From positions 3,713,398-3,777,397 of the forward strand of contig CP036272.1 of the NCBI GenBank assembly GCA_007745635.1: 64,000 nt of DNA, given 5' to 3'. Made by a program: the position numbers and the translations under genes. This document shows positions 22,451 through 44,398 of this stretch, in pieces. This DNA is from Stieleria bergensis (GTDB lineage: Bacteria > Planctomycetota > Planctomycetia > Pirellulales > Pirellulaceae). The notes under the pieces were generated by a model. That model had not been told where the DNA came from. It saw only the letters and a list, made by a program, of their open reading frames with translations, and made no database searches. Position 1 is the stretch's first letter. Each line of letters begins with the position of its first letter.

Positions 22451-25384
22451 GTGGCACGCAAGAGATCTGCAACCAAGAGCACCGCACTGACTGCGCAAGA
22501 CACGATTTCGGTCCGCGGGTGCAGAGTGCACAATTTAAAGTCGATCGACCTGGACTTACCGCGCGGCAAGATGATCGCCCTGTGTGGTCTGTCCGGCAGC
22601 GGCAAGACTTCGCTGGCTCTGGACACGCTGTACGCTGAAGGCCAGCGCGCGTACATCGAAAGCTTCACGGCATACACACGGCAATTCCTGGCGCGGCTGG
22701 ATAAACCTGACTGCGATTCCATCACGGGCATCCCACCGGCGATCGCTGTCACGCGACAAGGCGGCTCGAAAACCAATCGCAGCACAGTTGGCACAGCGAC
22801 CGAGATCGCAGACCACCTGCGTTTGCTATACGCCAAAGCGGCGACCCTGTCCTGTTACCGTTGCGGGCGACTGGTCCGGGCAGACGATCCCTCCGAAGTC
22901 GCCGCGCAGCTACAAGGGCGTGGCTCGCGGCACATGATTGGATTTCCGATTTGGTTGCCCGACCGAACCGCTGGCGGCGAGATCCTGTTGGGCTTGCAGC
23001 AAGACGGCTATCAGCGACTCATTCTCGGCCAGCGAACGTATCACCTGACTGACTCGGATCGAAAGACGCTCGCTGGAGCAATCAAGCGCGAGGGCGTCGA
23101 AGCAACCGTGATTGTCGATCGCGTTTCCGCCAGCACGGACTTGGCGCGATTGACGGAATCCCTGGAGACCGCGATGGGCGAAGGGCACGGACGCGCCACG
23201 ATCCTTTCACTGTCACCGAGCGGCCTGACTGAAGACCATCGAATTGGCGGCAATCGAACTGAACTCGATGAGAACGATAGCAAGGACGCCGAAGTCAATC
23301 AGGGCGATCGCTTGGTCTCGATCGATGATCAAACCTGGCAACAGCAAATCATCAGCGAACAACGGCGCTGTGACGCTTGCGATTTGGATTACCCGGATGC
23401 CGTGCCGCGCTTGTTTAACTTCAATCATCCACTCGGTGCCTGCTTTCAGTGCGAAGGCTTTGGTGAATTGATTGACTTTGACATGGATTTGATCGTCCCG
23501 AACAAGGACAAAACGCTTGCAGAAGGCGCCATCGAACCATGGAACACGCCGTCCTATTCCCATGAACGCGAAGAACTGCTGGAACTGGCCGATGATTACG
23601 ACATCCCCGTTGACATCCCGTATCGCAAGCTCAAAAAGAAACACCTTCAACTCATCCACGAGGGTGTACCCGCACGTCAGTTCGGCGGGCTAAGCGGTTT
23701 CTTCAAGTGGCTTGATCGCAAAAAATACAAGATGCACGTGCGTGTCTTTGCGTCTCGCTATCGCAGCTACCGAACCTGTGACGTCTGTGATGGCAAACGC
23801 TACAAGCCAAGTGTGTTGGCGTATCGCTTGCAAGGCAAAACCATTGCCGACCTGTTTGCGATGACAGCGGACCAAGCGGCCAGCTTTCTGGATCGCACGG
23901 AGATCGAATCGCGCGAGCAACAAATCGCAGCTGAACCATTGCGGCAGATCCGCGATCGACTGGGCTACCTGCAGTCGGTTGGCCTGGGGTACCTGCAACT
24001 TGAACGACCGTTGCGAACGCTCTCTGGCGGTGAGACTCAGCGGGTGGCGTTAACGGCCGCGCTCGGCGGCAGCCTGGTCAATATGTTGTACGTTCTTGAC
24101 GAGCCCACCGCTGGACTCCACCCCAGTGATGTGACTCCGCTGATCGACTGCGTTCATGGTTTGCGTGATCGTGGCAATACCGTGATCGTTGTCGAACACA
24201 ACGAGCAGATGCTTCGCGCGGCCGATCAGGTGGTAGAAATTGGGCCAGGTGCGGGAGTCGGTGGCGGTGAGGTCGTCTTTCAAGGCACTCCCAAGCAGAT
24301 CGCCAAGAGCAAGACTAGCCTGACCGGCATGTACTTGCGACGCGATCGCGGACAAACGCTGCGGTCACACTCGCCGCGTGAATCCACTGCCGAATTGGTA
24401 CTCAAAGGCGCCAGCGGCCACAACCTTCAGTCGGTCGATGTGGCATTCCCACTGGGCGTGCTCTGTGTGGTCTCTGGTGTTTCGGGAAGCGGCAAGAGCT
24501 CACTGGTCGTGGACACCCTGCTGCCCGCGATTCAGACTCGCAAGAAACAAACCACCCTGCCCTGCCTGCCCTACCAATCGCTCACCGGAGTCGGGCAGAT
24601 TCAACAATGCATCGCCGTTGATCAATCGCCCATCAGCCGCTCACCGCGCAGCTGCCCGGCAACGTTCCTGAAGGTCTTTGATCCGATTCGCAAGGTCTTT
24701 GCCGCAACCGGTGAAGCCCAACGACGCGGGCTGACCGCCAGCCACTTTACCTTTAACAATGCCAAGGGCCAGTGCCCCGAATGCGAAGGTGCCGGTGTGC
24801 TGCAAGTCGACATGCACTTCCTGGCCGACGTGCAAATGCGCTGCCCTGAATGCCGCGGCACTCGGTATCGAGGCGACATCCTGAAAGCCACTTATCGTGA
24901 CCGATCGATTGCCGACGCGCTGAACATGAGTGCCGCCGAAGCGTTCGAATTTTTTCGCGGCGCGGAAAAAGTGCAAACAAAACTGCAGCGCATGCTGGAC
25001 GTCGGGCTGGGCTACCTTAGCCTCGGCCAGTCCGCTTCCACATTATCCAGTGGCGAGGGACAACGATTGAAGCTGGCGGAGTTCTTGGCATCCAGCTCAC
25101 GCAAGCGAACGCTGTTTGTGATGGATGAACCAACGACCGGACTGCATGACGATGACTTGGTGCGACTGGTCGACTGCATGGACGCGCTGATTCACGACGG
25201 CCATTCACTGATCGTGATCGAACACAATCCCTTACTAATGCTCTCTGCAGATCACATCATCGACCTTGGCCCCGGCGGCGGCGACAAGGGAGGATCAATT
25301 GTTGCCTCCGGAACGCCGCAACAGTTGATCAGCCATTCGCAAGACGTCAGCCTGACAGCAAAGGCTCTGGCAGAGCACTGCTAA
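22451..25384 (+). CDS. uvrA: UvrA-family excinuclease ATPase (possibly a paralogue)
   Basis: 977 residues from GTG at 22451. It has the double ABC layout of UvrA: Walker A LCGLSGSGKTSLALDTLY near residue 45, zinc module CYRCG near 135, signature LSGGETQRVAL and Walker B VLDEPTAGLHPSD near 522-555. The second half has Walker A VSGSGKSSLVVDTLLP near 677, CPECEGAGV and CPECRGTRY near 775-800, signature LSSGEGQRLKL and MDEPTTGLHDDD near 865-895. UvrA recognises helix-distorting DNA damage with UvrB. The signal region RQGGSKTNRSTVGTATEI and a variant second signature (SSGEG in place of SGGEA) differ from standard UvrA, so this may be a second UvrA used for another purpose. Monocistronic by spacing. 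Confidence 0.85.
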   Translation: MARKRSATKSTALTAQDTISVRGCRVHNLKSIDLDLPRGKMIALCGLSGSGKTSLALDTLYAEGQRAYIESFTAYTRQFLARLDKPDCDSITGIPPAIAVTRQGGSKTNRSTVGTATEIADHLRLLYAKAATLSCYRCGRLVRADDPSEVAAQLQGRGSRHMIGFPIWLPDRTAGGEILLGLQQDGYQRLILGQRTYHLTDSDRKTLAGAIKREGVEATVIVDRVSASTDLARLTESLETAMGEGHGRATILSLSPSGLTEDHRIGGNRTELDENDSKDAEVNQGDRLVSIDDQTWQQQIISEQRRCDACDLDYPDAVPRLFNFNHPLGACFQCEGFGELIDFDMDLIVPNKDKTLAEGAIEPWNTPSYSHEREELLELADDYDIPVDIPYRKLKKKHLQLIHEGVPARQFGGLSGFFKWLDRKKYKMHVRVFASRYRSYRTCDVCDGKRYKPSVLAYRLQGKTIADLFAMTADQAASFLDRTEIESREQQIAAEPLRQIRDRLGYLQSVGLGYLQLERPLRTLSGGETQRVALTAALGGSLVNMLYVLDEPTAGLHPSDVTPLIDCVHGLRDRGNTVIVVEHNEQMLRAADQVVEIGPGAGVGGGEVVFQGTPKQIAKSKTSLTGMYLRRDRGQTLRSHSPRESTAELVLKGASGHNLQSVDVAFPLGVLCVVSGVSGSGKSSLVVDTLLPAIQTRKKQTTLPCLPYQSLTGVGQIQQCIAVDQSPISRSPRSCPATFLKVFDPIRKVFAATGEAQRRGLTASHFTFNNAKGQCPECEGAGVLQVDMHFLADVQMRCPECRGTRYRGDILKATYRDRSIADALNMSAAEAFEFFRGAEKVQTKLQRMLDVGLGYLSLGQSASTLSSGEGQRLKLAEFLASSSRKRTLFVMDEPTTGLHDDDLVRLVDCMDALIHDGHSLIVIEHNPLLMLSADHIIDLGPGGGDKGGSIVASGTPQQLISHSQDVSLTAKALAEHC

Positions 25385-26384: not shown

Positions 26385-27923
26385 TTACGGCTGAACCGAC
26401 TGCGTTTGATTGCGCCGCGCGGCAGCTTCCCTTTGCCGCTGTGCCAGGACTTCACGCATCTCCAACAGACGCTCGCTGACATGCTCTTTGCCGGCCAGAT
26501 TGTGCTTTTCCATTGGATCACGCGTCAGATGATACAACTCCTCGCCATCGGGCCACTTGGCATACCGCCAACGCTGATTGCGGATCGCGTAACCGAGCTT
26601 TGGACCGCGACTGACAACACTGTAGGCGAACTTCGTTTGCCCCGTCCGCACTGGATCGGCAAGCAGGGGACGCAGCGAACGGCCTTGCAAATGCGCTGGC
26701 AATGGCAACCCGGCCAAATCACTGAGCGTCGGATAAACATCGATCAACTCTACCATCGCTTGACTCTTGGTCCCGCCCTGAGTGGACCCGGGCACTCGAA
26801 TGATAAACGGCACCTTGGCACCAATGTCAAACAAGGTCACCTTGCCCCACAAAAAGTGATCGCCCAAGTGATAACCATGATCACTGGTAAACACAATGAT
26901 CGTATCCTCCCAGTGACCACTGTCTTTTAAAGCGTTGACGACGATGCTCAACTGTGCATCAATGAAAGAGATGCACGCGTGATAGGCCTGCATGTACTCG
27001 CGTCGCAGCGCATCGTTTTCGACGCCCAGCTCAAACCCGAACGCTTCATAGCGTTTGCTGATCGCCGACTTGGGAAGACTGTCCCACAAATTTCTACGAT
27101 CCGCTGTGTATTCAATCTTTTCCGGTGGGTACATGTCGAAGTATTTCTGGGGCGCCAGAAACGGCACGTGCGGCTTTTGAATCCCGCAGGCAATGAAGAA
27201 TGGCTTGTCACCAAAGGCATCGTCGGTCAACCATTTGGCAACCTGCCGCGCATTCTTGCCGTCCTTGTGCTGATCGTCCTGCAACCCGCTGGGCCCGTAA
27301 CCTGGCGGTGTTTGAGCGTCTAGCTTGGCCGCCACCTGTTTCTGGATCTCGCGCCATCGGCGGCGGTTCTTGGGGTCTTCGACCGAACCATTGTCTGCTT
27401 CAAAGGCTAGCCGCGCTTGCGTCACCACGGGCAATTCATCATTGCTAAAACGATGAAACTCGTTCCAAGCCACATTGCCATGTTCATGCCTGGGGCTGTG
27501 AAAGACCTTGCCAACACAGCCGGTCCAGTAACCGTGCTCTTTAAAGTGCTGTGGCAGAGTGACCGTCCCGGGACGCTGACGACGAATATCGTCCGTATTA
27601 TTCAGTACACCGGAAGACTGCGGGTACAGCCCGGATAGCATTGACGCTCGGGAGGGGCCGCAAACGGGATACTGGCAAAACGCATGCGTAAACGTCAGCG
27701 ATTGGGCAGCCAGCCCCGACAAGGTTGGCGTGGTGATCGGAGAATAGCCAGCCGGCTGCACATGCGTGTTCAAGTCGTCACAGACAATGAACAAGACATT
27801 CTTCGCTTTGGCGGATTGAGTCGCTGCACCGCTTTGAACCTCAGCAGCCTGCGCAGAAACAACGTTGATCAACGTCACCTGAAGCAGGAACCCGAAACAA
27901 ACAATAAACAAACTTCGAAGCAT
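26385..27923 (-). CDS. Secreted sulfatase, iduronate-2-sulfatase-like
   Basis: About 512 residues from the ATG at 27923, where a signal peptide begins (MLRSLFIVCFGFLLQVTLIN, cleavage near SAQA). The frame extends to 28013 but that adds an unlikely leader. The alkaline-phosphatase-like core starts with NVLFIVCDDLN. Cys88 in VCGPSRASMLSGLYP is the CxPSR site converted to formylglycine. Other metal-site motifs follow: GKVFHSPRH, CGIQKPHVPF and VFTSDHGYHLGDHFLWGKVT. The combination resembles IDS-type sulfatases that remove 2-O-sulfate from uronic acids in glycosaminoglycans or algal polysaccharides; the exact substrate cannot be read from sequence. The activating enzyme is not in the window. Confidence 0.9.
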   Translation of the reverse strand: MLRSLFIVCFGFLLQVTLINVVSAQAAEVQSGAATQSAKAKNVLFIVCDDLNTHVQPAGYSPITTPTLSGLAAQSLTFTHAFCQYPVCGPSRASMLSGLYPQSSGVLNNTDDIRRQRPGTVTLPQHFKEHGYWTGCVGKVFHSPRHEHGNVAWNEFHRFSNDELPVVTQARLAFEADNGSVEDPKNRRRWREIQKQVAAKLDAQTPPGYGPSGLQDDQHKDGKNARQVAKWLTDDAFGDKPFFIACGIQKPHVPFLAPQKYFDMYPPEKIEYTADRRNLWDSLPKSAISKRYEAFGFELGVENDALRREYMQAYHACISFIDAQLSIVVNALKDSGHWEDTIIVFTSDHGYHLGDHFLWGKVTLFDIGAKVPFIIRVPGSTQGGTKSQAMVELIDVYPTLSDLAGLPLPAHLQGRSLRPLLADPVRTGQTKFAYSVVSRGPKLGYAIRNQRWRYAKWPDGEELYHLTRDPMEKHNLAGKEHVSERLLEMREVLAQRQREAAARRNQTQSVQP

Positions 27924-28030
27924 CAAAAGGCTTGGGGTAGAAAGGTAGAGACCGCATAGCAGACAGTGGCGACACAGTTCCAGTAAAAGAAGCGTGATGG
28001 GGAGGAAACACATTGTATTCCATCACCGCC

Positions 28031-28252: not shown

Positions 28253-28690
28253 ATGTACTTTTCGATCGATGTCCACAGCGATACGGCGATTTATTTGCAA
28301 CTCGTCAGACAAATCAAGTTCGCGATTGCGTCTGGAACGTTAAGGCCCGGACAACTCTTGCCCAGCGTTCGAATGCTTAGCCAGCAGGTGGCTTTGAATC
28401 CAAACACGGTTTCCCGTGCTTTCAATCAATTGCAAACCGACGGAGTGATCGAAGCGTTGCGAGGACGCGGCATGGTGGTCTGCGAGCAAGCGCCCAAGCA
28501 TTGCCGCAAGGATCGCGAAATGGTGGTCAACGAACGGATCGGTGCGATCATGACCGAAGCCTGGAACGCTGGCCTCAGCCGCACTCAGATCGAAAGCTAC
28601 GTGCAATCGCATCTCGATGATCTGGCGCAGCGCACACCGACTGCGTTGCAATCATCCGCGGACTCAACGAACGGTCAGTCCGCTGACTAA
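28253..28690 (+). CDS. GntR-family transcriptional regulator, YtrA subfamily
   Basis: 145 residues. The winged helix-turn-helix covers residues 1-80: IYLQLVRQIKFAIASGTLRP, then LPSVRMLSQQVALNPNTVSRAFNQLQTDG and GRGMVV. The C-terminal region is a short helical tail (about 50 residues) without a ligand-binding domain, which is the YtrA arrangement. Such regulators usually repress the ABC exporter encoded next to them. The ATPase gene follows after 74 nt, and a palindrome overlaps the promoter upstream. The inducer is unknown; relatives respond to cell-envelope-active compounds. Confident of the family, less so of the regulon. Confidence 0.9.
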   Translation: MYFSIDVHSDTAIYLQLVRQIKFAIASGTLRPGQLLPSVRMLSQQVALNPNTVSRAFNQLQTDGVIEALRGRGMVVCEQAPKHCRKDREMVVNERIGAIMTEAWNAGLSRTQIESYVQSHLDDLAQRTPTALQSSADSTNGQSAD

Positions 28691-28764
28691 CTCCGCAAGC
28701 CGTCCCTTTTTTGCCTTTTTCCACCAAGCCCAGTCTTTTCTATTCATAACCGGGAGACAAGCTC

Positions 28765-29745
28765 ATGGATCCGATCATCGACATCAGCCAACTGACCATG
28801 CGATTTCGGCGCTGCCATGCGTTGCGAGGCGTTGACTTGACCATCCCCGCTGGGACCGTGTTTGCCTTGTTGGGTGAAAACGGTGCAGGCAAAACGACCA
28901 TGATTCGGATTCTGACGGGGTTTCAAAAACCGACGTCGGGAACGTGCCGAGCCTGTGGACTGGATCCAACACGGGACGCCCAGCAGATCCGTCGCCGCAT
29001 CGGTTATGTCAGCGACTCCCCACCGCTGTATGACTGGATGACGGTTTCTCAGATCGGTGGCTTTGCGGGATCATTCTATGAAAACTCATTCTGGCCCACT
29101 TACGAAGACCTGTGCAAGCGATACCAGATTCAGATGGACCAAAAGGTCAAGCACTTATCAAAGGGACAGCGTGCGAAGGTTGCTTTGTCGCTGGCGTTGG
29201 CTCATGACCCGGAACTGTTGATCATGGACGAACCAACGTCTGGCCTGGACCCCAAGGTGCGTCGAAATTTTCTAGAGTCCATGATTGACCGGGCCGCCAC
29301 CGGACGAACGGTTCTCCTTTCGAGCCACCAGATCAATGAAGTCGAACGGGTCGCCGATCACATCGCAATCTTGCACCAAGGAAAGATTCGCCTCGTGGGT
29401 GCACTGGATACGATTCGCGCGAGCATCCAGCAGGTGACGATCAATCTGGACGACCCGTTGCGAACGATTCCAACGTTTTCCAGCGGCGCCGAGGTACTCT
29501 CTGAAGAACGCTCTGGCCGGTCGGTGCAAATGTATCTCCAGGACTCTCAGCCCAACGACATGGCCCAACTGCGCGACCTCTCGGGCGTCGTCTCGGTCAA
29601 TCATCGGCAAGCGACGCTGGAAGAGATCTTTGTTGCCTGCACCACGGACGATGGCCCATCGTTCGGCCAACACACCAAGCCTTACGATGAGCAGGAATTA
29701 GGGGACACAGAAACACACGACGCACTGTGGGCGAGCAGTCGCTAG
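28765..29745 (+). CDS. ABC transporter ATP-binding protein (ABC-2 exporter type)
   Basis: 326 residues. Walker A GENGAGKTT at residues 37-45, Q-loop region TGFQKPTSG, signature LSKGQRAKVALSLALAHDPE near 131, Walker B LLIMDEPTSGLDP near 152-165, and the H-loop SSHQINEVE near 188. The degenerate LSKGQ signature is common in the YtrB/GntR-linked subfamily. The C-terminal 90 residues form the usual extra domain of drug- and lipid-type ABC-2 ATPases. Followed after 66 nt by the large permease; together with the GntR-like gene they form one operon. Probably exports an amphipathic or antimicrobial compound, which is inference from context. Confidence 0.92.
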   Translation: MDPIIDISQLTMRFRRCHALRGVDLTIPAGTVFALLGENGAGKTTMIRILTGFQKPTSGTCRACGLDPTRDAQQIRRRIGYVSDSPPLYDWMTVSQIGGFAGSFYENSFWPTYEDLCKRYQIQMDQKVKHLSKGQRAKVALSLALAHDPELLIMDEPTSGLDPKVRRNFLESMIDRAATGRTVLLSSHQINEVERVADHIAILHQGKIRLVGALDTIRASIQQVTINLDDPLRTIPTFSSGAEVLSEERSGRSVQMYLQDSQPNDMAQLRDLSGVVSVNHRQATLEEIFVACTTDDGPSFGQHTKPYDEQELGDTETHDALWASSR

Positions 29746-29811
29746 TGCCTCGTATCCCCGTCCCGTTTGCGTTTCTTGCACTGCCGTCATCACTCACACA
29801 CAGGTCACACC

Positions 29812-32214
29812 ATGGCCACCGACGTGCCACTCACGCCCAAAGTTTCCACGCCCCGTGCAGCGGTTTCCCCAGCGGGTCACTCAGCGAATCACTGGTTGAT
29901 TTGGAAGGAGATTCGCCAACTGAAACCGCTGCTCGTTTTACTGGTCTCGCTGACGCTAGCGATGATTGTGTTTCAGCAAGTGGTCGAGTTGCTGGCGACA
30001 TCCCAACCGCCGAACTTTTCGGGACACTTGATCCTACTGATGCCCATGTTGTTTGCCATCGGCGCGGGGCCCATGCTGGTCAGCCAGGAATGGTCCACCA
30101 AGAGCATGTATTGGCTGCGAACCTTGCCAATCAGTGCGAACCGCATCATTACCACGAAATGGCTGGTGGGTTTGATCTCTCTGGTCGCGATCTGGATCAT
30201 CAGCCTGACGATGGCGGCCTTGACTGGTGTAACGTTTACGGAACGGGTTCAGCAAAGCGCGATGCAGACCACCGAGTCATTCGTCGCGGATCTGTATCGA
30301 TCCAACGTTGTTCAACTTCTGCTAGTCGGTTCGCTGTATCTGTTGACGTCGGGATACTTTGTGGGCTGGTGGATCCGCGATCAAGTGCTGACGTTGGTGG
30401 CACTGATTGCCGCGATCTTCTTTCCGATTGTTGTCTGGGCGATCACTCAGGCGATCTTTGATCCGAACGAAGGACAGGAGCCTTCAGCGACTTCATTGCT
30501 AGCGATGCTGATTGGGGCGACCGTCATCGCGACGGGACTGATGTACGGACTGGGCGTCCGCGCTCTGAATCCCTTGGGTGCGCCCCGATTCGGGTTGGCC
30601 AGCGAGAACGCTGCGGCGGTTCCACACGCGACCACCGTTGCCGCCACCCCTCGTTTCGGCTCAAGCTTTGTCGCCATGGTCTGGCAGATCATTTGGGGCG
30701 CCCGCTTGAAATATGCGATCGTGGTCGGCGCGTTAGGACTGGCCATCCTGCTTCAGTATTCGTCAGCGCAAGGGGCACGCGCTTTCGCCGTCATGATCGC
30801 GGGACTCTCATTCTTTGGCCTCGCTTCGCTCTCGTTCCAAGGCACGAGCGGACGGCAAAGCATCCGCTTCCTTTCCCAGCGTGGTGTGTCGCCCCTGCAA
30901 GCCTATGCAGCGATTCACGCGGTGCCGATGGCGATCATCTGCACGTTATTTTTAGGCTACAGTCTTTGGTACGCCTCGTCCCCAGCGCAGTGGGGTGCCT
31001 CGGCATCGCCGATTGCAATGCTTGGGCTAGTGTTGACGGCCTATGGCATGTGCCAATGGTTCAGCCAGTTTAGCAGCAACCTGTTCATCAGTTCGATTGG
31101 CGGACCGATCATCGCATTCCTGTTGACCATTAGCCTGATCTTCATGCCTCAAGTCGGCACGCCGTTTGTGGTGGTTGGACTGCTCGCTGTCCTCCCGTAC
31201 CTGGCAACGGCCATGATGATGCGGCGATTCATGGACGGTGGTGATCGCCAACTTAGCACGGTTCTGCTCTGCAGCTTTGCCGTCCTGATCTTCCTTGTTC
31301 CGACGGGTTTTGCGATCAACGCTGTAAGGTCTGCTCCCAGGATGACAGACGCCGAACGGTTAAGCTTCATTGAAAACGGCCAGCGTGAATTCAGGCGCCG
31401 TCGATCGCACAAACAGCTGGTGCCGATGAGCGTGATGGAGCCACGTGATTCCGACCAAGATTCACTCAACGGCGCTCCCAGAGGCGATAGAGTTTCGGCC
31501 TACGCCCTGCGCGCGGACTTGCAGATTCCCAACGACCACGCGCTGCTGAGTGATTCAGGCCTGTACCGCAGTTCAACCTTCTCCTACGCACAGCCCAATA
31601 CTTCCCGGACAAGCCTGGTGCAGTCGTGGCTGGACATTTGCGGACACAAGATCACCGCATACTTGTCAGCACCCGCTGATCAAAACTGGGACGAACTGAA
31701 GCCTTGGGTCGTTGGCTCGGGCCGCATGATCGGCGGCTTGCGTCGGTCGGACATGTTGCAATCGCAGGCAGACGCCGATGCCTTATCTGCGCTCTGGGTG
31801 TTGGCGTTACAGGAGCCTGAATTTGATTCGCGCCGCCAAACCCAAGAGATCGCGGAACTCGTTGAAGCGATCGGCACTCGCCGCAGTCGTGCTCAGGCCA
31901 GGAAGCACGCGCTGTATTGCCAGTTCCACAGATCACTGGGGGGACAGGACCAGTTCCTGGGTGGACGAGACCGATTGTTTCCGACGCCTTCGCTAGAAAA
32001 TTACCCCGCTGAACTGATCCACTGGGTCCAGCCCCGTTTACAGCAATTCATGTACAAGGAGCTGCTGCAGAAAATCACCGCCGCGGAGAACAACCAACCG
32101 TTCCAGCCCAACCCTGAACGAACGACTTCCCAAGACACCGACTTCTTGAGACTGTCATCGCTATGGGGCGGCCAATGGGAATCGCTTAGCCCGGCAACAC
32201 GTGTCGCTCCCTAG
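29812..32214 (+). CDS. ABC-2 type permease with large soluble C-terminal region
   Basis: 800 residues from the ATG at 29812 (a TTG at 29767 in frame is less likely). The N-terminus reads NHWLIWKEIRQLKPLLVLLV, the typical start of an ABC-2 permease. Around twelve hydrophobic segments lie between residues 40 and 510, in two groups separated by a hydrophilic loop near 250-290, as if two six-helix halves were joined. The last 280 residues after SAPRMTDAER are soluble, have no recognised domain, and would be exported or cytoplasmic depending on topology. Partner of the ATPase upstream; its stop is 86 nt before the next gene. The length is about twice that of a simple permease. Confidence 0.85.
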   Translation: MATDVPLTPKVSTPRAAVSPAGHSANHWLIWKEIRQLKPLLVLLVSLTLAMIVFQQVVELLATSQPPNFSGHLILLMPMLFAIGAGPMLVSQEWSTKSMYWLRTLPISANRIITTKWLVGLISLVAIWIISLTMAALTGVTFTERVQQSAMQTTESFVADLYRSNVVQLLLVGSLYLLTSGYFVGWWIRDQVLTLVALIAAIFFPIVVWAITQAIFDPNEGQEPSATSLLAMLIGATVIATGLMYGLGVRALNPLGAPRFGLASENAAAVPHATTVAATPRFGSSFVAMVWQIIWGARLKYAIVVGALGLAILLQYSSAQGARAFAVMIAGLSFFGLASLSFQGTSGRQSIRFLSQRGVSPLQAYAAIHAVPMAIICTLFLGYSLWYASSPAQWGASASPIAMLGLVLTAYGMCQWFSQFSSNLFISSIGGPIIAFLLTISLIFMPQVGTPFVVVGLLAVLPYLATAMMMRRFMDGGDRQLSTVLLCSFAVLIFLVPTGFAINAVRSAPRMTDAERLSFIENGQREFRRRRSHKQLVPMSVMEPRDSDQDSLNGAPRGDRVSAYALRADLQIPNDHALLSDSGLYRSSTFSYAQPNTSRTSLVQSWLDICGHKITAYLSAPADQNWDELKPWVVGSGRMIGGLRRSDMLQSQADADALSALWVLALQEPEFDSRRQTQEIAELVEAIGTRRSRAQARKHALYCQFHRSLGGQDQFLGGRDRLFPTPSLENYPAELIHWVQPRLQQFMYKELLQKITAAENNQPFQPNPERTTSQDTDFLRLSSLWGGQWESLSPATRVAP

Positions 32215-33812: not shown

Positions 33813-35162
33813 TTAAGAGGCGTTCTGCTTTTCGGCCATTTTGTCACGCAGTTCTTTGCAGGCGTCCGAAGGACTGCTGCACAGGGAACAGCTGCTGCTG
33901 CCGTCGGGGTTCGTCTTGCTGGCCAAACCTCCACAGGAACCGCTGATCGCTCGACGCCCAAACAACACGCCAACCGACATTCCCAACAGCAAAATCGCGA
34001 CGACGCAAACCGTTAGAATGGCGACGGGGATCATCTGGGACAAGAACGATTGCCCCTCATCGGCGTTCGCAACACCGGCAGCACTGGGCTCGACTTCCTT
34101 GGCATACTGGGCCAGTGTCCCGGTTCCGGCCGACAGGTAATCATCGCCCTCACGCCACACCGTCAGGACACCCAGTTCGTTCGTTTGAGCCAGTTGAATT
34201 GCCTGATCGGGGCCGACGACGTTAATCGCCGTCGCCCACGCGTCGGCCGCCATACAGTTTTCGGCAACCACGGTGACCGAAGCCATGCTGTGTTCAACCG
34301 GTCGTCCAGTCCTGGGGTCAATGGTGTGCGAATATCGCTTGCCATCCACGACGTAGAAAATCCGATAATCACCGGAAGTCGCCATCGAGGTTTGCGAACT
34401 CTCTGGCTTCATCGCATGCGCGATCAGCACCGTGTTGGACGCAGCGTCGGGCATTTGAATCCCAACAGCCCAAGGCTTGTCCGGTTTCGATCCAGACGTT
34501 CGGACTTCGCCGCCAATTTCGACAAAGACGTTTTCGAGGCCCAGTCCCGCCAACCGATCCACGACACGATCCACTCCATGGCCTTTGGCAATCGAAGAGA
34601 GGTCGACTTGCAATTCAGCCACCGACTTTTTCAATGCCGGCGGATCCTCGCGATAGGAAAGCTTTTCATAGCCCACTTGTTGCAGCAGTGTGGCGATGGC
34701 TTCATCGCTGGGAATCTGATTTGTCTTTTCGTCTGGACCAAAATGCCAGGCGTTGACCAACGGACCAACGGTCACATCAAACGCTCCATCGGTTGCCTTG
34801 GACACCTGCTGAGCATAGCGCACCACGTCGACCACGTTGGCGTTGACATCAATCCAATCGGTGGACTTTGATTGATTGAATTTGGACAACAAAGAAGACG
34901 GCAGGTACGTCGACATCTCGTCATTGACGGCACGCAGTTCCGCGTCGACCGAAAGCCGAATGGTTTCATCGTCAACGGATTCGCCGCCAACGACTTTGAC
35001 CATATATGTCGTGCCCATTGTCTGGCCGTCGAATTGGCGAATCGACTGACTGTCCGTACCGAGGGCGGGCTGCGGCTGTGCGTCAGCTGGCGGACGGAAA
35101 ACGAGCAGTGCTAAAACAGCAACGGTCGACCCGAAAGTCGACCGCATGAGTGAGCTGTGCAT
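33813..35162 (-). CDS. apbE: FAD:protein FMN transferase ApbE fused to an NqrM-like maturation domain
   Basis: 449 residues. A signal peptide (residues 1-28, ending ADAQ) is followed by an ApbE domain at about 45-330. It starts with QTMGTTYMVKV and includes TDGAFDVTVGPLVNAW, DLSSIAKGHGVDRV, VEIGGEVRTSG and YSHTIDPRTGRPV, which bind FAD and magnesium. This enzyme attaches FMN to the Thr of NqrB and NqrC. After a linker, a transmembrane helix (about 376-400) leads into FGRRAISGSCGGLASK and four cysteines (410, 425, 428, 435). That tail matches the NqrM family (GSCGGL, then a Cys cluster), which matures the iron centre of NqrD/NqrE. Normally apbE and nqrM are separate genes after nqrF. Here one protein carries both, 21 nt after nqrF. 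The fusion is read directly; the joint function is inference. Confidence 0.88.
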   Translation of the reverse strand: MHSSLMRSTFGSTVAVLALLVFRPPADAQPQPALGTDSQSIRQFDGQTMGTTYMVKVVGGESVDDETIRLSVDAELRAVNDEMSTYLPSSLLSKFNQSKSTDWIDVNANVVDVVRYAQQVSKATDGAFDVTVGPLVNAWHFGPDEKTNQIPSDEAIATLLQQVGYEKLSYREDPPALKKSVAELQVDLSSIAKGHGVDRVVDRLAGLGLENVFVEIGGEVRTSGSKPDKPWAVGIQMPDAASNTVLIAHAMKPESSQTSMATSGDYRIFYVVDGKRYSHTIDPRTGRPVEHSMASVTVVAENCMAADAWATAINVVGPDQAIQLAQTNELGVLTVWREGDDYLSAGTGTLAQYAKEVEPSAAGVANADEGQSFLSQMIPVAILTVCVVAILLLGMSVGVLFGRRAISGSCGGLASKTNPDGSSSCSLCSSPSDACKELRDKMAEKQNAS

Positions 35163-35183: not shown

Positions 35184-36404
35184 TCAGCCACCAAAGTCAT
35201 CGTATGCGATATTCTCAGGTTCAACACCCAGGTCATCGAGCATTTTGAACACGGCTTGGTTCATCATCGGTGGACCACAGATGTAGTATTCGATGTCCTC
35301 GGGTGCGGGGTGCTTGCTCAAGTAATTGTCCAGCAAGACTTGGTGAATGAAGCCGACGTAACCTTCCCAGTTGTCTTCCGGCATGGGATCAGACAACGCG
35401 ATGTTGAACTTGAAGTTCGGGAACTCTTCTTCGATGCCACGGAAGTGATCAACGTAGAACAATTCTCGCATGCTCCGTCCACCGTACCAGTAACTGACCT
35501 TACGATCGGTCTTCTGGCGTTTGAACAGTTCAAAGATATGGCTGCGTAGCGGAGCCATCCCGGCACCACCACCGATGTAAACCATTTCGGCGTCCGTTTC
35601 CTTGATGAAGAACTCACCGTACGGGCCGCTAATGGTTGCATGATCGCCAGGCTTTAAGCTGAAGATAAAGCTACTCATCTTGCCGGGTGGAAACTCTGGA
35701 TTCCGCGGCGGTGGCGTGGCAACACGCACGTTCAGCATGATGATGCCTTTTTCGCCGGGGTAGTTTGCCATGGAGTAAGCACGCACGACGGGTTCGTCGA
35801 CCTTGGAGACAAATCGCCAGATGTCGAACCGATCCCAATCTTCGTGATACTCTTCCTGGATCTCAAAGTCTTTGTAGTTGACGGTGTGCGGTGGGCATTC
35901 GATTTGAATGTAACCACCGGCTTTGAAGTCAACCTCTTCGCCTTCGGGGAGTTCGAGCACGAACTCTTTAATGAAGGTCGCGACGTTTTCGTTACTTCGG
36001 ACGGTGCATTCCCATTTCTTGGTGTCAAATGCTTCCGCCGGAACCTCAACTTCCATGTCTTGCTTGACCGCCACCTGACAGGAAAGTCGCTCGCCTTCGG
36101 CGGCTTCCTTCTTGTTGATGTGACCGGTTTCGGTTGCCAGAATCTCGCCGCCACCGTCAAGGACTTTGACTTTGCACTGGGCACAGGTACCGCCGCCGCC
36201 GCAAGCACTGGAGACGAACACACCGGCATCTGCCAGGGCTCCCAACAGCTTGCCACCGGCAGGCACTTCAACTTCTTTTTGGTTGTTGATCGTGATCTTG
36301 ACTGGCCCTGAGGCGACCAGCAACTTTTTGGCCCACAAAATCACTGCCACCAATGCCAGAATGACAAGGGTGAACATGACAATGCCAAGAATGATCGTTT
36401 GCAT
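35184..36404 (-). CDS. nqrF: Na+-translocating NADH:quinone reductase subunit F
   Basis: 406 residues, normal for NqrF. An N-terminal transmembrane helix ([20 protein letters not shown]) is followed by a 2Fe-2S ferredoxin domain with the cysteine pattern [11 protein letters not shown] and a later LSC. The ferredoxin-reductase part follows: [13 protein letters not shown] binds FAD, and [17 protein letters not shown] and YICGPPMM bind NADH. NqrF is the electron entry subunit, passing electrons from NADH through FAD and the Fe-S cluster. Last canonical gene of nqrABCDEF; the ApbE-NqrM fusion follows. 127 nt separate it from nqrE. Confidence 0.97.
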
Positions 36405-36531: not shown

Positions 36532-37185
36532 TTAAAGCTGAATGCCGCTGAAGGACATGAACGCCAAAGCCATCAAGCCGACAGTGATGAAGGTAATGCC
36601 TAAACCGCGAAGTCCCGGTGGTACATCACTGTATTTCATCTTCTCGCGGATACCGGCCAAGGCCACGATCGCCAGTGCCCAGCCAACACCGCATCCCAAT
36701 CCGTAGGTGCAGGACTGTGGAAAGGTCATCGTTCGTTCCTGCATGAACAGCGAAGCACCCAAAATGGCACAGTTCACCGTGATCAGAGGCAAGAAGATCC
36801 CCAGCGTGTTGTACAGCGTGGGAACGAACTTATCCAAAAACATTTCCAAGATCTGAACCATCGCCGCAATCACACCAATGAAGCTGATGAACGCGAGGAA
36901 GCTGAGATCAACTTCGGCGAAATTAACCATGTCAGTGGGAACTTTGAGCAAGTCATTGACCCACGTCATGGCTCCTTTCTTCAGGAACAGACTGCTGATC
37001 AGCTGGTTCGCTGGTACCGTGATGGCTTCGATCGCGATGACCGCGACGCCCAGACCGAGGGCTGTCTTGACGTCCTTACTAATGGCCAGGAATGTACACA
37101 TTCCCAAGAAGAACGCCAGCGCGAGGTTCTCTACGAAGACAGCCTTCATAAAGATGCTTAAGTGATCTTGAATGATCAATTCCAT
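36532..37185 (-). CDS. nqrE: Na+-translocating NADH:quinone reductase subunit E
   Basis: 217 residues with six hydrophobic segments. Conserved Cys residues of the NqrD/NqrE iron site are present in [12 protein letters not shown] and [19 protein letters not shown] lies near the start, as AAGGAAG five nt before the ATG at 37185. It is longer than the usual 198-202 residues because of about 15 extra residues in a loop ([20 protein letters not shown]). Inner-membrane subunit of the sodium pump; forms a pair with NqrD. Located 10 nt after nqrD. Confidence 0.96.
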
Positions 37186-37195
37186 GACTTCTTCC

Positions 37196-37822
37196 TTAGG
37201 CTTCTTCGTTCTGTTCGGGTTTGAAACTGCGAATCAACCAGATCAGAATTCCGATCAAGAAGAACGCACTGGGGGGCAATAGCATCAAGTTATTTGGCTC
37301 ATACCAGCCACCATCTTTGGTTAACTTGAACACGGTTGCACCGAAGATCGATCCATTGCCGAGCAGTTCGCGGAAGAACGCGACGAACAGCAGAACGAAG
37401 CCGTAGCCCATCCCGTTGCCAACACCGTCCCAGAAACTGATTCCGGGTTTGTTCTTCATCGCAAAACCTTCCGCTCGCCCCATCACGATACAGTTTGTGA
37501 TGATCAAACCGACGAAGACCGACAGTTGTTTCGAGATGTCGTACAGGAACGCTTTCAAAAACTGGTCGACCACGATCACCAGCGATGCGATCACGGTCAT
37601 CTGAACGATGATCCGAATGCTGCTGGGGATATAGGTCCGAATGGCACTGACCGCCAAGTTACTGAAGGCGGTGACCGCGATCACAGCGATCGACATCACG
37701 ACCGACGTTTCCATCTTGGTCGTGACCGCTAACGCACTACAAATCCCAAGGATCTGCAACGCGATGGGGTTGTTGTCGACCAGCGGTTCGACCAGGACTT
37801 TCTTTGTTGTTTGTTCAGCCAT
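37196..37822 (-). CDS. nqrD: Na+-translocating NADH:quinone reductase subunit D
   Basis: 208 residues, six hydrophobic segments. The N-terminal part [20 protein letters not shown] and the later [20 protein letters not shown] carry the two conserved cysteines that, with NqrE, hold the intramembrane iron. Start ATG at 37822, three nt after the nqrC stop, so translation is probably coupled. Membrane subunit of Na+-NQR. Confidence 0.96.
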
Positions 37823-37825
37823 GAC

Positions 37826-38656
37826 TTAAGACCCCGCTTTTGGCGTGTCGATTCCATGTTCTTTAATGTGGGTCAGGAACAGCTTGTAAGCGTCATCGCT
37901 GGCCCAGTAGCGGATCAAATTGGTGACACCGCGGCTTGTGATCGTGGCCCCAGTCAGGCCATCGACCTCATACTTATTGCCCAGGGGGGCAGTTCCCTTG
38001 GCGAGACCAGCAGCTGGCACGCCTTCGGGGTTGTACAGTGTTTTGCCTTCCCACTGCAGTTTCCAGCTTGGGTTGTCCACTTCGCCGCCCAAGCCTGGAG
38101 TCTCACCATGCTTGTAGAAGGTCAAACCCTGGATCGTGTTGAGATCCTTCTTCAGAGCCAAGTAGCCGTACAGGGTCGACCACAGGCCTTTCCCGTAGAC
38201 AGGCAACACGATCTGCTGAAACTCTTTCGTCTTCGCATCGCTGACGACGTACACCTTGGCGTACTTTTCGCGAAACTTTTCACCCGGATTGAACTCGGGG
38301 TTCACGATGTCTTCGCGTAAGTCAGGCGAATTGACTGCTTCACGGGGATCGTAGTTGTCGACATCCAGTCCGTTGACATCCGTCACGAACTCGCCTGTGT
38401 CTAAATCGACGATGTACGGTGTGACTTGCTTAAACAAGTCTTTGATCTGATCAGTGGTCAAACCACTGGCAGTGACACCGTACTGGCCTTTTGCCAGACC
38501 GGCGGCATCAAGGATATTCTTTTGCTGGTCGAGCAGCGCGTTGGCCGCTTGACGTTCTTTCAGTGCCACCGCAGCGCCGCTGACGAACAGCGAGCAAACC
38601 ACGCATAGCACGGTCGCAACAACAAAAGTCTGTGCATTAGATTCACGTTGTGACAT
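37826..38656 (-). CDS. nqrC: Na+-translocating NADH:quinone reductase subunit C
   Basis: 276 residues from the ATG at 38656, with AGGAGG about 10 nt upstream. The frame extends to 38689, but this start, which overlaps the end of nqrB by 14 nt, has the better ribosome site. One N-terminal transmembrane helix (TFVVATVLCVVCSLFVSGAA) anchors a periplasmic FMN-binding domain. The motif DGLTGATITSRGV near residue 235 contains the Thr that receives covalent FMN from ApbE. Part of the electron path to the quinone. Confidence 0.96.
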   Translation of the reverse strand: MSQRESNAQTFVVATVLCVVCSLFVSGAAVALKERQAANALLDQQKNILDAAGLAKGQYGVTASGLTTDQIKDLFKQVTPYIVDLDTGEFVTDVNGLDVDNYDPREAVNSPDLREDIVNPEFNPGEKFREKYAKVYVVSDAKTKEFQQIVLPVYGKGLWSTLYGYLALKKDLNTIQGLTFYKHGETPGLGGEVDNPSWKLQWEGKTLYNPEGVPAAGLAKGTAPLGNKYEVDGLTGATITSRGVTNLIRYWASDDAYKLFLTHIKEHGIDTPKAGS

Positions 38657-39941
38657 AACGTGCTTTCCTCCTGCGAACGTTGACGGCAACGACGAAATAG
38701 TCGATCAATGGAGCGAAGACGTTGCCAAACAAAATGGCCAACATGATGCCCTCTGGATACGCCGGGTTGATACAACGAATCAGTACGGTCATGAAACCGA
38801 TCAGCCCGCCATAGATCCATTTTCCTTTGTCAGTCATCGAGGCACTGACCGGATCAGTCGCCATGAAGACCAGTCCGAACGCCAATCCACCCGTCACATA
38901 GTGCCAGTAGAACGGAATGTGCGTCATTGGGTTACTGACACCGGTGGTGACACCGTTTAACAGCAGTGCGGTCCCGGTCACACCAAGCAACACGCCCAGC
39001 ATGACTCGCCAGGATCCGATTCCGGCGGCGATCAAGATGCCAGCACCGACCAGGCACATCAACGCGCTGGTCTCGCCGATACAGCCCTGAATATTGCCGA
39101 CAAAGGCATCCATCCAGGAGATTGAACTGGTCCAAGTGATCGGATCAGCGGTTCCAAAAGCATGGCTGATGTTGGTAAGCGATTTGACTGCAAATCCGCC
39201 ACCCTCGCCGACCGCCTGCGCGTTTGCCATCTGCCCCAGGGCGGTGGCGCCGCTGAATCCATCGACAGCCGTCCAGACTTGGTTTCCGCTGATTTCGCTG
39301 GAGTAACCAAAGTACAGGAAGGCCCGCGCGGATAAGGCCACATTGAGGAAGTTCCTGCCGGTTCCACCGAAGACCTCCTTGGCAATGATGACGCCAAAGG
39401 CGATCCCCAAGGCGACTTGCCAAAGCGGGATCGTGGGCGGCAATGTCAGCGGAAACAGCAAGCCGGTGACCAAGAAGCCTTCATTGATCTCGTGGCCACG
39501 CAGCATACTGAAGACTAATTCAATGTGACCGCCGACAAACATCGTCACGATGTAGATCGGCAGGAAGTAAATCAATCCCAATGCCATGCAGTCGCCAATG
39601 CTGGCCGCATCGTTGGTGAAGCCCACCCAGTTGTGAATGGCGTTGTGCCAATCACCCTGGTAGACCTCGTTGGCCGCCTTGACTTTTTCAATCGTCAAGT
39701 TGGCTTGGTGCCCAACATTCCACATGCCGAATAAAGTGGCTGGCACGAGCGCCATCACCACGGTGATCATCATCCGCTTCAAATCGATGTTGTCTCGCAC
39801 ATGGGTGTTCCCATGTGCGACCTCTCCCGGCGTGTACAAAAACGTATCTAACGCCTCGTACATCGGGTACGCGATCTGCAGCGGTCCGCCTTTGGCGAAC
39901 AGCGGATGGACTTTGTCCAGAGCAGCGCGAAGTGCTTTCAT
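38643..39941 (-). CDS. nqrB: Na+-translocating NADH:quinone reductase subunit B
   Basis: 432 residues with about ten hydrophobic segments. The motif VDGFSGATALGQ near residue 230 holds the Thr flavinylated by ApbE. FNDEGF-like features of the family are visible as GHEINEGFLVTGLLFPLTLP, and the C-terminal part reads DPVSASMTDKGKWIYGG. NqrB carries covalent FMN, riboflavin and the main sodium path. It lies 130 nt after nqrA and overlaps nqrC by 14 nt. Confidence 0.96.
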   Translation of the reverse strand: MKALRAALDKVHPLFAKGGPLQIAYPMYEALDTFLYTPGEVAHGNTHVRDNIDLKRMMITVVMALVPATLFGMWNVGHQANLTIEKVKAANEVYQGDWHNAIHNWVGFTNDAASIGDCMALGLIYFLPIYIVTMFVGGHIELVFSMLRGHEINEGFLVTGLLFPLTLPPTIPLWQVALGIAFGVIIAKEVFGGTGRNFLNVALSARAFLYFGYSSEISGNQVWTAVDGFSGATALGQMANAQAVGEGGGFAVKSLTNISHAFGTADPITWTSSISWMDAFVGNIQGCIGETSALMCLVGAGILIAAGIGSWRVMLGVLLGVTGTALLLNGVTTGVSNPMTHIPFYWHYVTGGLAFGLVFMATDPVSASMTDKGKWIYGGLIGFMTVLIRCINPAYPEGIMLAILFGNVFAPLIDYFVVAVNVRRRKARYVTT

Positions 39942-40071: not shown

Positions 40072-41421
40072 TCAACCGTCGCGTTCAATGGTGGTCAAGT
40101 TTTCGCGAAGCAATGATCCGTACTCGTACTTGCCAGGGCAAACAAACGTGCACAGTGCCAAATCTTCTTCTTCTAACTCCAAAGCGCCCAAGTCTTGAGC
40201 TTGATCGGTATCGCGAACAATCAATGCACGCAACAGCTGCGTTGGCATGATGTCCAACGGCATGACTTTTTCGTAAGTCCCCAAGGGCACCATCGCTCGC
40301 TTGCTGCCAGCGGTCGTGCTGCTGAAAGCAAACTTCTGTCCGGGGAACATCGCCGAGGCAAACACGCGGGTGACGCTAAACTTGTCAAATCCGGGCTTCT
40401 GCCAGCCCAGGAATTCACGCTCGTCCCCTTCTTCGATGATTGAAATCTGGCTGTGATAACGACCCAAGAAATTGTGGGGTTCCGTCGCAATGCGGCCGTG
40501 AAAAACCGATCCGCTGATGGACCGAATCTTGACCGATTCGTCGTATTCGCCCGCAATCAATTCATCAACGCTGGCACCGACGCGTGTCTCCAGCAAACGA
40601 GGCTTGCCAACCAATGGACCGGCCAGCGAAATCACTCGGCGAACGTCCAAACGTCCCGTGTTAAACAACGCGCCAATCGCGATCACATCTTGGTAGCCCA
40701 AGTACCAAACCGTCTTGTGCGGTCCGACGGGATCCAACTGGTGAATGTGAGTGCCGACCAAACCGGCTGGGTGAGGACCGCCGAACTCAGTGACTTTCAC
40801 CCCATCAACGGCGTCACCAGGAATCTCTGCTCCACTCTGCTTACAAACGTGAACCAGCCCATCGGTCAACTTCGTCAAAACCGACAAACCAATGCGGAAC
40901 TCTTCGCGGCGATCAGCCATCGCAACCACCGGGCAAGCTGCCAAAGGGTTGGTGTCGATCGCTTGCACGAAGATCGAACTGGGCACCGAACCAACGGCAG
41001 GTACCTTGCCGTAAGGACGTGTGCGAAGCGAGGTCCATAGACCGCTCTCGGAAAGCAACTCCGCCGTCCTTTCGCGGTCGAATGAAGCCAGGTCGCCCAC
41101 GTTAAAAGTCACCTGGTCGGATTCACCCGCATCAGGATTCACTTCAATGACGATCGCTTCAAACTTCCGTTTGGCTCCGCGAATGACGTCGACCACTTTG
41201 CCGGCAGCCGGCGAAGTGAACGTCACACCAGCGGTTTTCTTGTCAGTAAACAGTGGCTGACCAAGCTTGACCGTGTCGCCCTCGGCGACCAGCATCGTCG
41301 GTTTCATCCCGACGTAATCATCACCCAGTAACGCGACTTTGGTTACCGGTCGGGCGACTTCGATATGCTGAGCGGGGGTGCCCAGAATCGGCAGATCCAG
41401 CCCTTTTTTAATCGTGATCAT
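40072..41421 (-). CDS. nqrA: Na+-translocating NADH:quinone reductase subunit A
   Basis: 449 residues, family-normal. It begins [20 protein letters not shown], the standard NqrA start. Later parts include [20 protein letters not shown] (biotinyl-like fold), [12 protein letters not shown] and the C-terminal [20 protein letters not shown]. NqrA is a cytoplasmic, quinone-associated subunit. First gene of the operon; an 18-bp palindrome lies 320 nt upstream, and a hairpin lies 40 nt upstream in the presumed leader. Confidence 0.96.
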
Positions 41422-41757: not shown

Positions 41758-42568
41758 GGCAAGGCGGACAACAAGCCCGCGGTCGGGTTTGGTGCTCCAT
41801 CAGCCGAAAACTTTCCGCGGGCATCGCGAACTGCTCACAACGTTTCGCAGGGAAATATTACATAGCAGACCCAAACTGGCAACGGCAGGCGGCAGACTAC
41901 GGCAAATCCTATCCAATCATTCTCGACTAGGGAAAACGGAGCCCCTGTAAACCACCGTTAGTGGCTCGCCATGTTCCAGGCCAGTCATCGTCCGAATGCG
42001 GACTTTCCATTCAAACCTCGCGTTACGACGAAAGGGTCAATGGGAACCTACCAGATGCTGCGCCCGACGATGCAAGATCTAGGAATCGTAACGCCGTGAA
42101 AAGTGCCGCCGTCATCGAGCGACTGAGGCCAGCTTTCGGTGACTCGCCTGAACGACAGATCGAGATGGTTACCTGACTGCGATCGGTCACCAACGAGCGA
42201 GCGTCGGCACAACCCGGACGACAGTCTTGCTGGACCTGCTAGGTCTTTCACGGTGACAATCGACGCCTGCAAGCCTTCGTTAAGTCAGTCATCGGTCCGG
42301 TCACTGAAACCCGATTCAGTCAACAGCGAATCGGACTCTGGTCCAGGCGGAGGTAAGCGGGGAATGATGCTCAACTCGCGTGGCGGTCCAGGCGGCGACC
42401 GAAAGGCCTAACACACAGGTTCCACAGCGAAACGAGTCCATTTCTTAATCGTTCCTAACCCGCCAGTCGCACTGCACAAAAACGTGCGAGTTCGCTAGGC
42501 TTTGACGCATCTCAACGTCCGAGTTTTTCTTGGTCACCACCGTAACACGCTATGAAGAATCAAGTCCC
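41758..42568. other. Long spacer between nqrA and typA
   Basis: About 800 nt. Small frames such as 42139-42411 (plus; Gly/Pro/Arg-rich end) lack a domain, a start signal and any relation I recognise, so none is called. A structured RNA was looked for (RNase P, tmRNA and SRP RNA hallmarks) and not found. Confidence 0.5.
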
Positions 42569-44398
42569 GTGAGCATCACTACTGAAACTGAACGTCGCAA
42601 CGACATCCGCAACGTTGTCATCATTGCTCACGTCGACCATGGCAAAACCACAATGGTTGATTGCCTGCTGCGTCAAAGCGGTCAATTCCGCGACACCGAA
42701 TTGCAGGGCGACTGCATTCTGGATTCGAATGACTTGGAGCGAGAGCGTGGGATCACGATTCTGGCCAAGAACATTGCGATCCCTTATCGCGACACCAAGA
42801 TCAACTTGATTGACACCCCGGGTCACGCGGACTTTGGCGGTGAAGTTGAGCGTGTGTTGACCATGGCTGACGGTTGTTTGGTGTTGGTCGATGCGGCTGA
42901 AGGTCCGATGCCACAAACGCGTTACGTGTTGGAAAAAGCGCTTGCTGCGGGCGTCAAACCCATCATCGTGGTCAACAAAATTGATCGCCCCGACGCTCGC
43001 TCCCATGAAGCCTTGGACGAGGCGTTGGAGCTGCTGGCGGAACTTGGTGGTGAAGATCAACTGGACGAAGTGGCGTATGTGTTCACCAGTGGCAAATCTG
43101 GGTACGCGACCACTGACCCCGATTCGCCTGGCGAAGACATGCGTCCACTGATGGACCTCTTGGTCGACCATCTGCCCGGACCGGTCGTGGACACCGACGC
43201 GCCCTTGCGTATGCTGGTCACGACATTGGACTGGAGCGAGTACGTTGGCCGAATCGCTGTGGGACGGATTCAATCCGGCGACATCAGTGCCGGTCAAACG
43301 ATTGAGTTGCATCAGAAAGATGGCCCTGTCAAACAGAAGATCTCGGGCCTGTACATGTTTGACAAACTGGGACGCGCCCCGGCAGAACATGCCAAGGCCG
43401 GAGACATCATTGCCCTGGAAGGCTTAGAGAACGTCGAAATCGGGGACACTGTCTCCTTGGTCGCGGCGAACAACGCCTTTGAACGGCCCTCGGTTGACGA
43501 GCCAACGCTGGAAATGGTGTTTGCCGTCAACTCGTCTCCGTTTGCTGGCCGCGAAGGCAAGTATGTCACGACGCGACAAATCAAAGGCCGCCTGGAAAAA
43601 GAACTGGAACGCAATGTTGCGTTGCGTGTTGAAACCATTCCTGGCACCGAATCGTATGCCGTCAAGGGCCGTGGGATCCTGCACTTGGCAGTTCTGATTG
43701 AAACCATGCGTCGCGAAGGCTATGAGCTTAGCATCGGCAAGCCGCGCGTGATCAATCGTGACATCGACGGCAAACCCCACGAGCCTTTTGAAGGCTTGCG
43801 AGTTGAAGTGCCCACCGAATCGATGGGCCCTGTCATGGAGCTCGTTGGACTGCGTCGCGGCAGCTTGCTAGAAATGACACAGCGGGGCGAGTACAGCTTG
43901 CTGCAGTTCATCATTCCCTCACGTGGCTTGATCGGATTGCGAACCCGACTGCTGAATGCGACACGAGGCACGGCAGTCATTCACCATCGCTTTGCCGAAT
44001 ACCGCCCGGTCGAGCCGGATGTCCCCGGCCGTGGCAATGGTGTGCTGATTTCAATGGTTGCCGGCAAGGTTATGCCCTTTGCCTTGTTTGGCTTACAAGA
44101 TCGCAGCGATCTGTTTGTCGCTCCGGGCACCGACGTTTACGAAGGCATGCTGGTCGGCGAGAACGCGCGCGACAACGACATGAACGTGAACCCCTGTCGA
44201 GAAAAGAAGCTGACCAACATGCGTGCTTCGGGCAGCGATGAAAACGTGATCCTCAAACCGCCACGCCAAATGTCACTCGAAGCGGCCCTGGAATACATCG
44301 AGGACGATGAATTGGTCGAAGTCACCCCCGAGAGCATTCGGCTAAGAAAAATCCTGCTCAAGGAATCCGATCGACGCCGCAACAATCGCAATCGATAG
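42569..44398 (+). CDS. typA: Ribosome-associated GTPase TypA/BipA
   Basis: 609 residues from GTG at 42569; a TTG at 42530 would add 13 residues (MVTTVTRYEESSP) and cannot be excluded. The G domain has HVDHGKTT (G1), RGITI (G2), [15 protein letters not shown] (G3), NKIDRPDA (G4) and SGKSGYA (G5 region). The EF-Tu-like domain 2, the EF-G-like domains III and V, and the C-terminal BipA domain follow ([20 protein letters not shown], then [20 protein letters not shown]). TypA acts on 50S ribosomal subunit assembly and stress or cold adaptation. Single gene by spacing. Confidence 0.96.

Follow-up and report, generated by a model that had tools for sequence, protein, structure and literature searches.

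The window, i.e., the whole 64,000-nt stretch of Stieleria bergensis DNA analysed here, carries nqrA to nqrF, each matched by its NCBIfam model, and, downstream of them on the same strand, a gene in which an ApbE flavin transferase domain and an NqrM-like tail share one open reading frame. The features of the locus are as follows:

33813..35162, minus strand: apbE-nqrM fusion gene, 449 aa (one ATG-to-stop open frame with Pfam ApbE and NqrM matches)
35076..35162, minus strand: putative N-terminal export signal, residues 1-29, AxA-type, without a lipobox (read by eye)
34125..35033, minus strand: ApbE flavin transferase domain, residues 44-346 (Pfam, sequence match to 6nxi, structure model)
34038..34118, minus strand: variable linker, residues 349-375 (identity to fused homologues, model pLDDT)
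33957..34037, minus strand: predicted transmembrane helix, residues 376-402 (hydrophobicity and model)
33843..33956, minus strand: NqrM four-cysteine tail, residues 403-440, with Cys410, 425, 428 and 435 (Pfam NqrM, alignment)
35184..36404, minus strand: nqrF (TIGR01941, 679 bits)
36532..37185, minus strand: nqrE (TIGR01940, 316 bits); candidate cluster ligands Cys30 and Cys139
37196..37822, minus strand: nqrD (TIGR01939, 323 bits); candidate cluster ligands Cys28 and Cys111
37826..38689, minus strand: nqrC (TIGR01938, 226 bits); TGAT flavinylation-type motif at residue 246 of the frame
38643..39941, minus strand: nqrB (TIGR01937, 537 bits); SGAT flavinylation-type motif at residue 230
40072..41421, minus strand: nqrA (TIGR01936, 552 bits)

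The start codon of the fusion gene lies 21 nt past the nqrF stop codon. The nqrC frame overlaps nqrB; its residue numbers follow the frame, and its start codon is provisional. The nqrD product has only two cysteines, and the nqrE product has four. A search of the window against Rfam at the gathering threshold gave no matches, and a scan of it for promoters and terminators gave nothing useful. Further away in the window, open reading frames judged by eye appear to encode an excinuclease-like ABC protein (22451-25384), a sulfatase-like protein (26385-28013), a GntR-like regulator and, after it, the ATPase and permease of an ABC transporter (28253-32214), and a TypA/BipA-like GTPase (42530-44398).

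Both domains of the 449-aa protein are recognised by curated profiles. Pfam ApbE (PF02424) matches residues 49-328 with an E value of 4.6e-87 (292 bits; cut-off 25.6), and the domain matches the sequence of Vibrio cholerae ApbE (6nxi) at 1.2e-68. Pfam NqrM (PF04400) matches residues 399-447 with an E value of 4.5e-5. In the whole protein, this match scores 23.6 bits, barely above the cut-off of 22; the tail submitted alone scores 26.7 bits. Of five further fused proteins, two fall under the cut-off (19.9 and 19.8 bits), although both are strongly matched by a profile made from planctomycete tails that include the window's own. The strongest hydrophobicity of the protein is at about residues 377-401, and the last four of its cysteines (303, 386, 410, 425, 428, and 435) are those of the tail. 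The N-terminus, read by eye and with a regular expression, looks like a cleavable AxA-type signal and has no lipobox. The original prediction had described a signal peptide, a full ApbE domain, a transmembrane helix, and an NqrM-like four-cysteine tail, in a gene directly after nqrF. Each of these is borne out, the signal peptide as a putative one read by eye and regular expression, and the tail with an NqrM profile match above the curated cut-off.

The window protein can be compared with each of the two families that it combines. With ApbE/Ftp proteins of known structure (V. cholerae 6nxi, E. coli 4xgv), it has in common the whole domain, the fold, and the motifs; it differs from them in having no lipobox and in carrying a C-terminal helix and NqrM tail. 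A lipid anchor is usual but not defining for ApbE, and cytosolic ApbE proteins exist. With NqrM (DUF539, PF04400), the tail shares a single helix (seen here by hydrophobicity and in the structure model) ahead of a GSCGG motif, three further cysteines, the profile, and co-occurrence with nqr genes, but it forms the C-terminus of an ApbE protein rather than a separate small protein. Kostyrko et al. (2016) reportedly described four conserved cysteines in NqrM and are said to have found that NqrM occurs with NQR.

An AlphaFold model of the fusion protein, built from 29 sequences, shows an ApbE domain with the expected fold and pLDDT mostly >90, followed by a helix at residues 373-402. Residues 360-371 of the linker have pLDDT <50. 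The tail is less certain, with a helix at residues 431-448 and pLDDT <50 for residues 405-413, which include the first tail cysteine; the model cannot speak to the topology of the tail. Foldseek returned 41 matches for the model at E ≤0.001, the best being V. cholerae 6nxi (E 2e-31); the first 39 are ApbE, Ftp, or FmnB structures, and the other two are DVU1097.

Conservation is distributed unevenly along the protein. Mean identity of the window protein to 28 fused homologues is 72% for the tail (residues 403-440), 57% for the ApbE domain, 43% for the helix, and 23% for the linker. All 29 aligned fused proteins, among them that of the window, have the four tail cysteines. In a sample of 397 genomes from the same class (the class sample; see below), the four-cysteine pattern is kept in 51/53 fused proteins and in 65/69 other NqrM proteins, a count that leaves out one further unfused NqrM without the GSCGG motif. 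That the tail is the best conserved part, with invariant cysteines, is evidence against its being a mere anchor. This bears on the possibility that the tail is a relic, kept only to hold ApbE at the membrane, in an NQR that no longer needs NqrM. Such a reading would fit the absence of a lipid-anchor signal from most fused proteins, as well as the occurrence of two genomes with nqrF and no NqrM match (both described below). Given a tail that is far better conserved than the helix that would do the anchoring, and cysteines that have been kept almost throughout, we give it little credence.

The class sample allowed us to ask how common the fused arrangement is. Using TIGR01941 at E ≤1e-50, nqrF was found in 127 of the 397 genomes. 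A profile for NqrM, made from 18 planctomycete tails that included the window's own, also matched 127 of the 397 at E ≤0.01. Four weak-match genomes (G631, G087, G642, and G318; E 0.004-0.01) and second pieces in two others (G578 and G506) were dropped, leaving 123 NqrM places in 123 genomes. At 53 of these places, ApbE and NqrM are in one frame; at 63, a separate apbE lies upstream of an adjoining nqrM; and at seven, there is no ApbE within 3.6 kb of NqrM. The survey of planctomycete nqr loci that the original prediction had proposed thus reveals a common fusion, and the idea that it is unique to the window genome can be rejected, as 31 of the best 80 named loci (see below) are also fused. 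In each of the 53 fused genomes, the fusion is the sole NqrM match reported. The seven genomes with a separate nqrM and no ApbE within 3.6 kb upstream are G512, G580, G385, G365, G666, G300, and G296; G512 has its nqrF, its nqrM, and its best ApbE at places distant from one another.

As expected of the family, NqrM occurs with NQR in the class sample: nqrF and NqrM are found together in 122/397 genomes, nqrF only in five (G524, G560, G641, G024, and G322), and NqrM only in one (G654). For G524 and G641, the nqrF match begins only at about position 130 and is just above the cut-off, and in G560 the nearest ApbE is cut by the contig end. G024 and G322 have a strong nqrF match and no NqrM match, with apbE beside nqrF in G322; in these two genomes, either NqrM was missed, or it is absent from the assembly, or NQR is present without NqrM.

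Fused and separate states are both present within the same families. With the seven places that have no nearby ApbE counted as not fused, fused genes occur in 25 genera, genes that are not fused in 30, and both in one (g373, through G652). By family, fused genes make up 33/61 places in f3, 17/39 in f1, and 3/17 in f95, with 0/6 in five further families. In G652, the ApbE and NqrM frames are shifted relative to one another at the linker, and two genomes with the same genus code have an intact fusion. Judging from its sequence, G652 probably carries a fusion whose frame has been broken; we kept it among the 63 separate loci. A long frame in G025 was rejected as a fusion since ApbE there is in another frame.

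These last two cases are what might be expected if fused frames were artefacts of sequencing, assembly, or frame reading: the G025 frame is not ApbE, and G652 resembles the opposite error. Against this, both domain profiles are found in one frame in 53 genomes, with a conserved tail and a variable linker, and nine of these genomes are assembled in a single contig (G000, the window genome, and G291, G340, G346, G504, G565, G592, and G619) or, for G628, in six contigs. The recurrence of the fusion across the class sample and among the best 80 of 140 named loci leads us to reject an assembly error, and we put the chance of any artefact close to nil. A chance fusion is likewise excluded by the number of fused places, together with the contrast in identity between tail, ApbE domain, and linker.

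According to the original prediction, separate apbE and nqrM genes normally lie after nqrF. This holds as the usual arrangement but is not universal: an nqrF lies no more than 3.6 kb upstream at 59/63 separate loci and at 34/53 fused loci. For the remaining 19/53 fused genes, where no upstream nqrF is that close, one could suppose that the ApbE half serves a target other than NQR and is paired with NqrM for membrane placement only. In the window, the fusion gene directly follows nqrF, the nqrB and nqrC products bear flavinylation-type motifs, and a second ApbE in the genome could serve other targets; we therefore regard a non-NQR target as highly improbable.

The window genome (G000) is a single contig of 7,107,266 bases, rated 96.47% complete. 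The fusion is its sole PF04400 match above the cut-off, the next match covering 13 profile positions with an E value of 1.94. A separate intact nqrM elsewhere in the genome would have spoken against the original prediction; at this level of completeness, none was detected above the cut-off. The genome has two ApbE matches, one being the fusion and the other a stand-alone gene (G000:C1:3674810-3675622; frame of 343 aa, 225 bits) about 38 kb before the first base of the window.

An N-terminal lipid anchor is usual in characterised ApbE proteins, according to a portion of PMC12052999. In the class sample, a lipobox-like [AGS]C was found by regular expression in the signals of 54/62 separate ApbE proteins vs 7/52 fused proteins (Fisher p 4e-16, kinship ignored), and a stricter lipobox pattern, again a regular expression with kinship ignored, in 44/62 vs 6/52 (p 1e-10); one cut-off protein was omitted from each group. 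When relatedness was allowed for using treekit, there were three supported independent pairs, with a median p of 0.5, and the swap of signals was not significant. Because fused proteins mostly have no lipobox of the kind found in separate ApbE, the NqrM helix probably stands in for the lipid anchor, as far as signal types can indicate. In genus g341 (L063, L123, and L125), the fused proteins retain a lipobox-like cysteine, and these proteins are possibly anchored at both ends.

Loss of the lipobox also bears on whether the protein stays in one piece. The fusion might be cut in the linker, leaving ordinary separate ApbE and NqrM to do the work. The linker is variable and modelled with low confidence, and both factors function as separate proteins elsewhere, as this reading would have it. 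However, in most fused proteins an ApbE released without a lipobox would lose its membrane anchor, and none of the 27 linker columns is invariant among the 28 fused homologues. Cleavage thus seems to us unlikely.

How the fused gene arose can be approached from the separate loci and from the tree of ApbE domains. At 26/63 separate class loci, the nqrM start codon overlaps the apbE stop codon (ATGA or GTGA), so that a minor shift of frame is enough to merge the two genes. In a quick tree built from 115 ApbE domains, nine changes between fused and separate states are required, of which at least three are forced by supported branches; for example, the fused genus g236 is nested in a clade of family f95 whose other members are separate (supports 97 and 99). 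An AU test against a single split, with all fused ApbE domains on one side of a branch, was borderline (p 0.0447). With at least three forced changes, and nine in the best quick tree as a whole, fusion or splitting probably happened more than once in the history of these sequences.

To place these events, we considered genomes beyond the class, the sampled phyla being Planctomycetota and Pseudomonadota. In a phylum sample, Pfam NqrM at E ≤0.01 was found in 25/294 genomes and in 0/14 control genomes. Excluding the window's own, 20/24 of the phylum-sample matches were confirmed by the tail profile, and of these confirmed loci, 5/11 in the class and 0/9 outside it are fused. In Pseudomonadota, there are 51 NqrM places in 49 of 299 genomes, and no fusion was found among them: all 51 NqrM frames are ≤172 aa, and therefore none can hold an ApbE domain. 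Since no fusion occurs in these outgroups (0/9 outside the class; 0/51 in Pseudomonadota, by frame length), repeated fusion appears likelier than splitting on the sequences sampled. A further set comprised the best 80 of 140 named loci, a biased sample found with patterns from fused proteins, of which 31 are fused, 48 have nqrM separate beside apbE, and one is without ApbE in the stretch. Fused loci among these best 80 include Stieleria, Rhodopirellula (R. baltica and R. europaea among them), Rubripirellula, Neorhodopirellula, and Roseiconus. All 39 loci in the same best 80 that are gammaproteobacterial by name are separate.

What the fused protein may do can be considered in light of the NQR complex. 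According to passages of PMC12174285, the FMN of NqrC and NqrB lies towards the periplasm, NqrD and NqrE hold the [2Fe-2S] centre between them, and insertion of this iron-sulfur centre seems to need NqrM. We propose that the fusion protein would be exported, with its ApbE domain folding outside the membrane and attaching FMN to NqrB and NqrC. The NqrM helix would cross the membrane once, so that the four-cysteine tail would lie on the cytoplasmic side and there help to form the intramembrane iron-sulfur centre of NqrD/NqrE. To judge from signal types, the same helix would provide the anchoring done by lipid in most separate ApbE proteins. We estimate the probability of this reading, which is built on sequence features, at roughly 80%. 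Its topology follows from export: an exported ApbE with a single membrane crossing behind it requires a cytoplasmic tail. The charge pattern is as expected for such a tail in 50/53 fused proteins, where the segment after the helix has a higher net charge than the one before it, but in only 47/69 unfused NqrM proteins.

If ApbE is outside, the single helix puts the NqrM cysteines inside, and its action on the iron centre would then come from the cytoplasmic side; the fusion thus offers a clue to topology. The fusion also implies that the two factors share one complex as their target and can be physically linked. More speculatively, the fusion may couple FMN attachment outside to iron-sulfur formation inside, in a 1:1 ratio at the NqrB-E core, and may have evolved repeatedly, usually with loss of the lipid anchor; we advance this extended reading with considerable doubt.

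The closest known arrangement is the separate apbE/nqrM pair, with the same two domains in the same order as the fusion. The pair differs in being two polypeptides, with an ApbE that mostly has a lipobox-like signal. Separate apbE and nqrM genes follow nqrF in Vibrio, as described in sections of PMC6209661 and PMC12174285. In our locus surveys, the same is true of Aeromonas and many planctomycetes. Fusions of ApbE to other proteins have been described. In Trypanosoma brucei and L. pyrrhocoris, according to a portion of PMC12052999, ApbE is fused to fumarate reductase, a natural ApbE fusion like the window protein. The kinetoplastid fusion is to an ApbE substrate and is intracellular, whereas the window fusion is to a second maturation factor and would lie across the membrane. 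A second potential parallel is RnfF of Rhodobacter capsulatus, in which a section of PMC11729352 places an RseC match at the N-terminus and ApbE at the C-terminus. If so, RnfF would link ApbE to a membrane protein with a cysteine motif in RNF, the sister complex of NQR, with another partner and the other domain order. However, a passage in PMC9124969 describes rseC as a gene of its own upstream of rnfF, and no frame among the RseC matches listed for our Pseudomonadota sample exceeds 295 aa, i.e., none appears to be an RseC-ApbE fusion. As the two sources disagree, we rejected RnfF as a firm precedent and are unsure whether it is one at all.

We found no report of an ApbE-NqrM fusion in the literature searched, most subscription papers being outside the search; domain databases may well list the architecture. 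There is also a lesson for annotation. Rhodopirellula baltica BR-MGV has a single NqrM match, in a 466-residue frame, and would seem to have no nqrM if only small separate genes were sought.

A locus on a plasmid of Leisingera aquaemixtae (L180 1-8245) has two separate genes in the same frame. One tblastn piece of the window protein (92% covered, 39.8% identity) spans a gene annotated as FAD:protein FMN transferase and the next gene, annotated as nqrM, which is 33 nt away. The Leisingera NqrM is 38% identical to the window tail over 65 residues. The plasmid also carries nqrD, nqrE, and nqrF, with seven annotated genes between nqrF and the apbE-nqrM pair.
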